A stretch of 14,654 nt of DNA from Alphaproteobacteria bacterium. GTDB lineage: Bacteria > Pseudomonadota > Alphaproteobacteria > RF32 > CAG-239. The stretch is from assembly GCA_003542415.1 (NCBI GenBank), contig DPKR01000055.1, forward strand, positions 1 to 14,654. The letters are read 5' to 3'. The notes beneath the pieces were generated by a model. The model had not been told where the DNA came from and ran no database searches. It worked only from the letters and a program-made list of their open reading frames with translations. Positions 3,919 through 14,497 of the stretch are shown one piece after another. Within the stretch, counting starts at the first letter, position 1. Each line of letters opens with the position of its first letter. A program made the position numbers and the translations under genes.

Positions 3919-4317
3919 ATGACAAGAAAACAAATTTTGGACCAGCTCCAAGAAGAGCTTTCCTTCGGGCTTGTAAAAGAGGGATACTGTAAACGTATCG
4001 GGAACATCTTCTTCCGCGCCGGACACTCTGGTTGCGTGCAAAGGGATGTCGTCTACTACGGCTCCAAGCGCTATGGGCTCAATTTTGAGCTCATCGCGAT
4101 GGACTGGAGCTATTTTACAGGTTCTAAGAACCACGCCCTCGCCCTACAGGAAGCCTTCGGCGGAAAAGCTTATCCTTCGGAGTATGTCTCCTGCGTTGAC
4201 GGCATGGATCTCTGGATCTGGGAAGGCCCCGAACGCGAAGAGCAAAAAGAAGAAAGCCTGCATGGCACACCTCACTGCCTCGATTTTGAGGAAATCAAAG
4301 CAGCCCTGTTTGACTAG
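3919..4317 (+). CDS. Unrecognised 132-aa soluble protein
   Basis: The ATG at 3919 was chosen over a TTG at 3889, because the promoter at 3849-3877 would start transcription only about 5 nt before the TTG. No Shine-Dalgarno is visible before 3919, which is odd behind such a good promoter. The protein is acidic and soluble, rich in tryptophan and aromatic residues (FELIAMDWSYF, MDLWIWEGP), with an early block RKQILDQLQEEL. It has no signal or membrane helix. GC in the coding part is near 50 percent in the stretch counted, against about 35 percent in the gene before it, so recent arrival or a different expression history is possible. It ends in TAG and is followed by a bidirectional terminator. 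No family recognised. Confidence 0.75.
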   Translation: MTRKQILDQLQEELSFGLVKEGYCKRIGNIFFRAGHSGCVQRDVVYYGSKRYGLNFELIAMDWSYFTGSKNHALALQEAFGGKAYPSEYVSCVDGMDLWIWEGPEREEQKEESLHGTPHCLDFEEIKAALFD

Positions 4318-13325: not shown

Positions 13326-13586
13326 ATGGCAATAGGCTTAAAAATATATTTGCCGGACAGGGTTTTTGTGCAAACAAAAGCAGACAAAGTTTTACTCCCT
13401 GTGATTGAGGGCAATTTGACAATTATCAATGAGCGTGCGCCGCGTTCGCAGCTTTTGACCGAAGGGGTTGTTGCGCTCTTAGATGAAAACAACAATGCTT
13501 TCAAAAAGTGGAAAATCGGCGGCGGGGTGGCAGAGATTGCTGAAGATATATGCCAAATTGCCGTTGAGCAAATTGAAGAAATATAA
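13326..13586 (+). CDS. atpC: F1F0 ATP synthase subunit epsilon, short form (86 aa)
   Basis: The whole protein corresponds to the N-terminal beta-sandwich of epsilon: a strand LKIYLPDRVFV, the loop around LPVIEGNLTIINERAP (the usual GxxGxxxILPxHAP region, diverged), and a final KWKIGGGVAEI block like the F-x-V-x-G-G-x-x-E-V of longer homologues. Bacterial epsilon is usually 130-140 aa, with a two-helix C-terminal domain that can lock the rotor and bind ATP. That domain is absent: after VEQIEEI comes TAA, and no continuing frame is seen before the terminator. Such short forms are known (for example in green sulfur bacteria). Coupling should be intact, but the epsilon brake should be missing. 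Last gene of the operon. Confidence 0.93.
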   Translation: MAIGLKIYLPDRVFVQTKADKVLLPVIEGNLTIINERAPRSQLLTEGVVALLDENNNAFKKWKIGGGVAEIAEDICQIAVEQIEEI

Positions 13587-13615
13587 GTCAAAAAAATCTA
13601 TTGATTCTTTTTATG

Positions 13616-13643
13616 GCCTCTCTTGCATAAGGGAGGCTTTTTT
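13616..13643 (+). terminator. Terminator of the priA-atp operon
   Basis: GCCTCTCTT (13616-13624) pairs with AAGGGAGGC (13629-13637) with one T-G wobble, loop GCAT, then a T run. Confidence 0.9.
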
Positions 13644-13645
13644 AT

Positions 13646-13674
13646 TTGACTTTTGATACAAAACCATGCATAAT
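13646..13674 (+). promoter_or_regulatory. Strong promoter of the structured leader
   Basis: TTGACT (13646-13651), 17-nt spacer, CATAAT (13669-13674), each 5 of 6 to consensus. It starts right after the operon terminator; the transcript would begin near 13681. Confidence 0.75.
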
Positions 13675-13680
13675 GGGTGA

Positions 13681-13834
13681 TGTAACCAAAATGGTTATGG
13701 TGTTTGATAAACATCTTCAACAACAAGGACTCCTCTCAGGGGGAGTGAACGAATAAGGTTTTCCAAATAAGTTCATCTGTGTTGTTGCAGTTTATCAGCT
13801 CCTCCATTTTGAGTTTTTCAAAATGGATTTTTTT
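13681..13834 (+). ncRNA. Structured leader or small RNA with alternative folds; candidate riboswitch/attenuator
   Basis: Helices that can be drawn: hairpin A TAACCA/TGGTTA (13683-13697, loop AAA); P1 GATAAAC/GTTTATC (13706-13712 with 13790-13796, plus a T-A pair); P2 CAACAACA/TGTTGTTG (13718-13725 with 13780-13787); hairpin B ACTCCTC/GGGGAGT (13729-13735 with 13740-13746, one T-G); hairpin C GAAC/GTTC (13747-13750 with 13771-13774). The 3' end is an intrinsic terminator. CAAAATGG (13687-13694) repeats the terminator's right arm and can pair with its left arm CCATTTTG (13804-13811), which would undo both hairpin A and the terminator and close P1-P2 into a long rod. GGGGGAG (13739-13745) can also pair with CTCCTCC (13799-13805). 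Only 24 nt separate the T run from the next ATG, so the gene at 13859 probably depends on read-through. No known riboswitch, 6S or SRP consensus was recognised. Confidence 0.6.
13804..13834 (+). terminator. Intrinsic terminator in the leader of the 212-aa gene
   Basis: CCATTTTGA (13804-13812) pairs with TCAAAATGG (13818-13826), loop GTTTT, followed by a T run (13828-13834). It overlaps the last two bases of CTCCTCC, so forming it competes with two other pairings in the leader. Confidence 0.85.
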
Positions 13835-13858
13835 AATATTACAACAGGACGAAAATAA

Positions 13859-14497
13859 ATGAATAACTTTCAACTAATAGGCACAATTTCAACTATATTT
13901 TTTATAAAACTAATATCAATTTTTATATTTCTGAGTCACCTTTTCTTTCCTGTCGGAGCTGTCTGGTTATTAGTTTTAGGAGAATGGAAAATTGTATTGT
14001 GCTCATTCGTATTCTGTTTATGTTCTACTTGGTATGTTTCTATTCCTATGTTATTAATTAAAACCCCTATTATTTTCATTACCATGGCTTGTGAAAGAAT
14101 AAAGATACTATATGCCTGTTTTCTCTTACTTGGATACCTTGTTACACCACTACTAATATCCATTTACGTTTCTTTAACCACCTTACCCTTCATTGCTCTT
14201 TCTTCCAAAATAAATTGTATACCAATATTTTTGATAGGTTACGAAATATTAGTACATCCTTGGATCTTTCTTGCTTCAAAAGAACAAGAAAATAAATTTA
14301 CCTTGCTAAGTATTACACTATTGCAAATCACATCTGCAATTATCTGTATCTTTTTTATATTCTCGAAATTATCTCTAAAAGAAGTGTTTTTAATTACTTT
14401 AATTCCGCAGCTATTAAGCCCATTAGTAATTATGTTTATAGAATATCTAATTTTGATAAAGCATAAAAAATCATTACAAAGCCCTATCTCACAATGA
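13859..14497 (+). CDS. Polytopic membrane protein of unknown function, very AT-rich (212 aa)
   Basis: The ATG at 13859 follows AGGAC about 9 nt upstream. The protein is almost all hydrophobic, with about six membrane helices and short loops, and ends in a hydrophilic tail (KHKKSLQSPISQ). Motifs that stand out are FFPVGAVWLLVLGEW near the N-terminus and PLLISIYVSLTTLPF in the middle; neither points to a family I know. GC in the first 60 nt is about 20 percent and codons such as TTA, ATA and AAA dominate, unlike the atp genes just upstream, which suggests acquisition from another source. A regulated leader with a terminator precedes it, as for many transporter genes, but transport is not shown. 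Its last 14 nt overlap the convergent gene at the right edge. Confidence 0.7.
   Translation: MNNFQLIGTISTIFFIKLISIFIFLSHLFFPVGAVWLLVLGEWKIVLCSFVFCLCSTWYVSIPMLLIKTPIIFITMACERIKILYACFLLLGYLVTPLLISIYVSLTTLPFIALSSKINCIPIFLIGYEILVHPWIFLASKEQENKFTLLSITLLQITSAIICIFFIFSKLSLKEVFLITLIPQLLSPLVIMFIEYLILIKHKKSLQSPISQ

Follow-up and report, generated by a model that had tools for sequence, protein, structure and literature searches.

The window, by which we mean the whole stretch of 14,654 nucleotides that was analysed, carried an ATP synthase operon at its 3' end, with the epsilon subunit encoded at 13326-13586 (PF02823). A terminator-like stem of this operon, at 13615-13638, was followed by a promoter-like pair, by the leader studied here and by an ORF of 212 amino acids (Table 1). 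The leader (13681-13834) had a folding energy of -50.5 kcal/mol (z -5.27), which none of 200 shuffled sequences equalled, and its predicted fold consisted of hairpin A and a rod of P1 and P2 with two inner hairpins. The distance from the T run to the ATG was 24 nt. The promoter (TTGACT/CATAAT), the fold, the terminator (stem 13803-13827) and the nearby ATG described in the original prediction were all present. A Pfam search with the 212-aa downstream protein gave no match, and a single protein cluster, 99% identical, matched it at E <= 0.001.

Table 1. Features of the leader and its surroundings in the window. Swap z values are given for 95 genus copies and, where a second value follows, for 30 divergent copies.
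Feature	Position	Strand	Evidence
Promoter: -35 TTGACT 13646-13651, 17 nt, -10 CATAAT 13669-13674	13646-13674	+	Sequence
Hairpin A: GTAACC/GGTTAT, loop AAAAT	13682-13698	+	Swap z -15.4, -8.9
Hairpin C: GGTGT/ACATC; loop 13704-13710 is the 5' strand of P1	13699-13715	+	88.7% of cells paired; swap z -2.2, weak
P1, 5' strand; partner 13790-13797	13705-13712	+	Two-sided changes at 6/6 core pairs in A4; swap z -34.6, -17.9
P2, 5' strand CAACAAC; partner is the D loop 13781-13787	13718-13724	+	Two-sided changes at 8/8 model pairs; swap z -34.2, -17.5
Hairpin B: ACTCC/GGAGT; rival of B' for the GGAG strand	13729-13746	+	89.3% of cells paired; swap z -4.2, -2.0
B', 5' strand GGGGGAGT; partner GCTCCTCC 13798-13805	13739-13746	+	99.8% of cells paired; swap z -7.7, -4.9
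P3: GAAC/GTTC; conserved two-sided internal loop GAATAAG ... AAATAAG; apical P3b	13747-13774	+	99.5% paired, two-sided changes at 4/4 pairs; swap z -18.7, -10.4 (P3b -13.9); loop motif counts
Hairpin D: CTG/CAG; loop is the 3' strand of P2	13777-13790	+	100% paired, near-invariant
J, 3' strand of P1	13791-13797	+	Swap tests and A4 pair counts
B', 3' strand GCTCCTCC; last 3 nt double as terminator foot	13798-13805	+	Sequence; overlap of at least 1 nt in 79/94 genus copies
Intrinsic terminator: 10-bp stem 13803-13827, T run 13828-13834	13803-13834	+	Sequence; strong stem and T run in 75/98 copies vs 3/490 shuffled
Shine-Dalgarno-like AGGA of the downstream gene	13846-13849	+	Sequence
Downstream gene, 212-aa membrane-type protein	13859-14497	+	No recognised family

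We found that the leader is one copy of a large family, in which a promoter, a conserved fold and a terminator are followed in most copies by a Shine-Dalgarno (SD) sequence and an ATG. A DNA search of 57 genomes gave matches in eight, all of the same genus, at up to 14 places each, and 59 copies were aligned. The covariance model R1 comprised 57 copies, 111 positions and 29 pairs; a half copy (L047) and a copy cut by a contig end (L059) were left out of alignments A1 and A3. With at most 150 candidates scored per genome, R1 copies were observed in nine of the 11 genomes of the genus (at least 85, 64, 32, 12, 9, 6, 4, 4 and 2), the genome with at least 85 being 1.4 Mb in size, and no copy was found in the remaining two, one of which is 59% complete. 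At the family level, with at most 25 candidates scored per genome, the element was present in at least 109 of 152 genomes and in 14 of 16 genera. Ten of the 385 genomes in a class sample were matched, four of them belonging to the family; the clear matches outside the family were in G224, G434 and G317, and those in G241 (2.3e-5), G048 (1.5e-4) and G430 (4.8e-4) were nearer the threshold. Pattern scans of viral contigs pointed to 15 distinct contigs, and among the first 13 of these R1 scored L084 (E 1.5e-5) and L082 (E 0.031) and not the other 11, with E-values that are flattering because the loci were picked by pattern; the viral-contig loci L092 and L093 lay outside R1 scoring. A second RNA subtype was observed at L094-L100 and L102-L105, in the same and other families, with a C/P1/P2 plan that looked alike by eye and with lipoprotein, pilin-like and other genes behind it.

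Compensatory changes were assessed by a swap test, in which the pairing of each helix with its own partner was compared with its pairing to partners from other copies. Alignment A4 held 99 genus rows, without L005, L029, L031 and L058, and the 99 genus copies had been collected by virtue of matching. Set A5 contained copies from other genera, three outside loci and MAG contigs of unassigned genus, with near-duplicates possible. Nine of 143 copies (4 of 99 in A4 and 5 of 44 in A5) were not parsed in the swap tests, and tests using downstream sequence covered 94 or 95 genus copies. P1 and P2 gave the strongest signals both in the genus and in the 30 divergent copies, which were less than 70% identical, and the compensatory support that had been proposed as a check for hairpin A, P1 and P2 was strong in both samples, as it was for P3. 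For hairpin B in the divergent copies, 95 of 5000 permutations were equally good.

Under a structure composed of C, P1, P2, B', P3, P3b and D, 96.9% of the cells of A4 (99 rows) were paired, compared with 72.0% in shuffled alignments, and 856 cells showed two-sided changes, compared with 228. The variable outer pair of B' was AU in 67 rows, GC in 15 and GU in 15, with none broken and two gapped. A4 had been fitted to a model with P1, P2, B, P3 and P3b and without B', C and D, so its counts lean towards the former helices and not towards B'; hairpin D, because it is near-invariant, gives no covariation evidence. The strands of P1 and P2 suited their own copy (-16.3 kcal/mol, compared with -6.0 for foreign partners, in 94 copies), and the D loops were diverse, with 59 distinct loops in 95 copies. 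All helices except hairpin B are compatible as one pseudoknot, in which J is the partner of the hairpin C loop and the D loop that of the P2 strand. The leader has a conserved structured core with conserved unpaired letters, as a riboswitch does. A pairing of the hairpin A strand with the CTCC strand was also considered and was rejected, as the own partner was worse than foreign ones (swap z +3.0).

Two antiterminator pairings had been put forward in the original prediction; the letters needed for both are present in the window copy, and across copies they fared differently. The main one, CAAAATGG with CCATTTTG (13687-13694 with 13804-13811), did not hold, with a swap z of +0.14 in 95 copies and -0.7 in 30 divergent copies; across copies, changes in the hairpin A strand are not followed by the terminator arm. 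The second alternative, GGGGGAG with CTCCTCC, is the helix B' and was upheld in both samples (Table 1). The GGAG strand is common to hairpin B and B', and the 3' strand of B' extends into the terminator foot. Among 94 genus copies, B' and the terminator arm overlapped by at least 1 nt in 79, by 0 in 11 and by -1 in four. The mean length of B' in the genus was 7.16 pairs with the own partner and 6.81 with permuted partners (1000 permutations, maximum 7.05); in the 39 copies of A5 the own length was not beyond chance (6.38 vs 6.00, permuted maximum 6.79). B' overlapped the terminator in 26 copies of A5 and not in 13, eight of which had a B' length of zero and may be parsing errors. By sequence comparison in the genus, hairpin B, B' and the terminator foot form a set of mutually exclusive helices of the kind expected of riboswitches, with hairpin B the weak member.

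The B' helix of the window copy has eight pairs, and without its three foot pairs the terminator changed from -11.2 to -3.4 kcal/mol. Nested folding of the window copy preferred an OFF-like state, at -40.0 kcal/mol with the pseudoknot energy excluded, compared with about -28 before pseudoknot terms: the nested part of the ON-like state, with the 8-bp B' and without the terminator foot, had -28.4 kcal/mol, again with the pseudoknot energy excluded, and a 5-bp B' together with the whole terminator was as good (-28.8 kcal/mol). In the order of transcription, hairpins A, C and B are able to form first. A constitutive leader, whose fold protects the mRNA or sets a fixed level of read-through without switching, would agree with the lack of a known ligand or protein and with the fit of every helix but B into one pseudoknotted fold. 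We nevertheless regard it as unlikely, since under a loose criterion each of 94 copies had a terminator-like stem with a T run, the stem was strong in 75 of 98, and finding B as well as B' supported on the one strand points to alternation, although B is weak.

In 75 of 95 genus copies, an ORF with an SD motif and an ATG, either 30 or more codons long or cut off by the contig end, began no more than 60 nt past the terminator; the opposite strand gave such a start in 3 of 94 cases and randomly placed controls in 117 of 1900. Upstream, 82 of 99 genus copies had a promoter-like pair with at least 9 of 12 matches, compared with 316 of 1980 shuffled sequences, and a stem of at least seven pairs with a T run was located in 97 of 98, compared with 152 of 490. 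The original view that the element looks like the leader of the downstream gene and contains mutually exclusive pairings was supported.

Attenuation through ribosome stalling on a leader peptide would share the architecture of a leader followed by a terminator; an SD-preceded ORF of at least five codons ending within the leader occurred in only three of 99 copies, which leaves this reading a negligible probability. A free-standing, terminated small RNA acting in trans, with a separate promoter for the gene behind it, would account for a promoter and a terminator enclosing about 150 nt and for the 20 of 95 copies without an SD motif and ATG within 60 nt. The small RNA sRNA-Xcc1, a distant relative of the leader (see below), was cloned as an 88-nt mapped RNA and gave a Northern band of about 100 nt, according to the portions of PMC2996969 consulted. 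On the other side, the same-strand SD motif and ATG followed in 75 of 95 copies, the D loop and J matched the 5' strands of their own copy and were diverse (59 distinct D loops in 95 copies), and at least 85 copies in a genome would be odd for a trans regulator, so that we consider a trans-acting RNA quite improbable.

We consider it likely, judging from sequence comparison, that the leader is a cis-acting transcription-attenuation leader and that it belongs to a large new family in gut Alphaproteobacteria that is distantly related to sRNA-Xcc1. The comparison among copies established the helices, the promoter, the terminator, their overlap with B' and the gene-proximal position, and the anatomy of the leader is well supported; its function is put forward as a proposal. 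The RNA would start just 5' of hairpin A. The conserved core would consist of B', hairpin D and P3, the last carrying two loops of the AATAAG type. P1, made of J and the loop of hairpin C, and P2, made of its 5' strand and the D loop, would tie this core to the 5' end. With the GGAG strand kept upstream in hairpin B, the terminator would form, and this would presumably be the default off state. When the core with B' is stabilised, the GGAG strand would pair downstream as B' and take up the terminator foot, so that RNA polymerase would read through into the gene and the gene would be on. We infer that, in the cell, termination is prevented by B' and that the state of the leader is chosen by a signal, which may be a ligand, a protein or an RNA. 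By comparison, the leader resembles terminating riboswitches and attenuators in the strand exchange among an upstream hairpin, a core helix and the terminator foot, but differs from riboswitches and attenuators in general in that it is without a known ligand or protein and in that its 5' region enters two core loops.

No Rfam family reached its cut-off in the window. Against 13590-13900 at E up to 10 the matches were all weak, and RF02221 (sRNA-Xcc1), with a gathering score of 53 bits, was not among them. In divergent members, RF02221 was the one Rfam family to recur on the element and matched at full length in L072, L076, L078 and L082 (4 of 15 sources) with 26.9-36.4 bits against the cut-off of 53, and in 38 relatives it gave no match over the cut-off and 13 below it. 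One locus, L101, was matched by both models (63.8 bits with R1 and 35.6 bits with RF02221), and L076 and L078 were likewise matched by both. Among 42 RF02221-type loci, R1 clearly matched L101 alone (L097, E 0.15; L099, E 2.6), and the two families are therefore far apart. They share, in the same order, a closing helix that corresponds to B', P3 with an A-rich two-sided internal loop, P3b, hairpin D, J and a closing strand. RNAalifold found only three pairs in the combined RF02221 alignment A6, in which MAFFT had apparently misaligned the subtypes; the homology of the leader and RF02221 thus rests on the bridging loci L076, L078 and L101. The original statement that no known class was recognised in the leader stands as far as the Rfam cut-offs go, and is qualified by this distant relative. 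A match to a known family with another role had been named as evidence against a leader; sRNA-Xcc1 answers to this in part, being filed as trans-acting, yet it may be cis-acting.

Other known RNAs did not account for the leader. RAGATH-9 (RF03146) matched weakly over a double CGAAUAAG-like motif (24.7 bits, E 0.025, cut-off 75.2) and was not listed when 15 further loci of the genus were searched at E up to 1, or 15 divergent loci at E up to 2; with one weak match and no recurrence, this is probably motif resemblance only. An identity with 6S RNA was set aside, as the genome carries its own 6S RNA at G000:C76. On the viral contig of L082, a sub-threshold match to Pseudomonadales-1 RNA was observed at 3984-4154 (51.1 bits, cut-off 68).

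RF02221 matched 57 of 398 Pseudomonadota genomes sampled, 39 of them over the cut-off. Like the leader, RF02221 loci have upstream sequence that pairs with D..J: in 30 over-cut-off loci, the 125 nt upstream complemented the own D..J with z -10.9, and 26 of the 30 beat the median foreign partner, eight being the best of all. Complementarity to the own D..J was also found in the 60 nt downstream, where the Shine-Dalgarno region is located (z -8.9; 27 of 30 and 7 of 30), and pairing on both sides of the SD motif was found in 12 of 30, compared with a mean of 5.5 and a maximum of 9 for foreign guides in 20 permutations. A T-rich stretch was located behind one of 30 RF02221 loci, whereas the leader has an intrinsic terminator overlapped by B'. 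Eight proteins picked by eye behind the 30 RF02221 loci comprised SymE (two), Bro-N (three), KilA-N, P22_AR_N and Rha, and were thus SymE or of the phage antirepressor type.

The pairing downstream of RF02221 loci bears on translational control, in which the CTCCTCC stretch or the D loop would mask the Shine-Dalgarno sequence. In its favour, CTCC is complementary to the SD sequence, the SD sequence matched the own CTCC in 37 A5 copies (z -3.05, 2 of 2000 permutations), the specific pairing with D..J seen at RF02221 loci offers a precedent, and the window copy ranked fifth best of 94 for SD against D..J. Across the genus, however, neither SD against D..J (z 0.03) nor SD against CTCC (z 0.20) was copy-specific, so that the window's genus, unlike RF02221 loci, has no general SD mimic, and we consider control of this kind very improbable here. 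The absence of downstream complementarity in the genus is consistent with control by termination instead. Near the start codon of L070, the Shine-Dalgarno region repeats the 5' strand of P2 and its duplex with D..J has -14.7 kcal/mol; this locus is intermediate in type, combining traits of the terminator leaders with those of the SD mimics.

These comparisons raise the possibility that the sRNA-Xcc1 family is itself cis-acting. PMC12444791 reports that symE is preceded by sRNA-Xcc1 in integron cassettes of Xanthomonas and takes this to suggest a divergent regulatory mechanism, which comes near a cis-acting reading. Seven Xylella homologues are given in PMC12189769, and the portions consulted of PMC8876359 and PMC6557892 mention sRNA-Xcc1 and nothing more. 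Among the titles and abstract openings covered, in which subscription journals are thinly represented, none concerned sRNA-Xcc1 as a cis-acting leader or an LRR_5 leader family, and the leader class is undescribed as far as our search extended. We tentatively entertain a wider reading, to which, taken as a whole, we give somewhat less than even chances: the leader and sRNA-Xcc1 would together make up a single, widespread superfamily of RNA switches guided in cis. A core sensing a ligand or a protein would display two variable guide strands, the D loop and J; these would find their partner either in a 5' decoy or, among members of the phage and integron types, in the Shine-Dalgarno region of the gene that follows; and in gut Alphaproteobacteria the core would have been rewired onto a terminator and, in dozens of copies, would run a repertoire of surface proteins. 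If so, the trans-acting sRNA-Xcc1 of the literature would be a piece of a cis-regulatory leader.

The proteins encoded behind the leaders were examined by Pfam for 53 of 58 chosen downstream ORFs. LRR_5, found in BspA-like surface proteins, was matched in 33 of the 53, HTH_3 in four, RHS repeat in two and sulfatase in one; the downstream proteins of L017, L019 and L044 had, by eye, a pilin-like N-terminus. In six picked genomes (G007, G002, G001, G000, G008 and G003), LRR_5 domain matches, which are not gene counts, numbered 112, 90, 84, 3, 1 and 0, and R1 elements numbered at least 85, 64, 32, 12, 9 and 0, being high where LRR_5 matches were high. The element is not tied to LRR_5 alone, because G000 and G008 hold more elements than LRR_5 matches. 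G003, of the same genus and 86% complete, had neither LRR_5 matches nor leader copies. At L067 and L069-L074, in other genera of the family and in one outside family, the leader was located before small proteins that by eye were of the Cro/CI-type HTH-like kind, and Pfam confirmed the HTH type for L067.

The result is a complete and testable anatomy of an orphan class of leaders, by which many surface-protein genes of uncultured gut Alphaproteobacteria may be controlled, and sRNA-Xcc1 gains a concrete explanation as a cis-acting RNA. Should the core bind a ligand, the leader would represent a new class of riboswitch; otherwise, it would be an unusual switch operated by RNA alone or by a protein.

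Tandem copies of the leader, about 220 nt apart, were observed at L151 (351-465 and 574-684) and L164 (901-1009 and 1122-1230), in two genomes of one other genus, and the same spacing was found in a third genome of that genus (G015:C15). The promoter stretch of the window copy (13624-13678) was 96% identical to that of L027 (G007:C22), a copy located behind atpC, and the next best was 73% identical. Despite the near-identical promoter stretch, the remaining leader and the gene differed between the two: the L027 gene starts like LRR_5-type proteins and contains an LRR_5 match, and the window gene is membrane-type, as if the cassette behind a common promoter had been exchanged.
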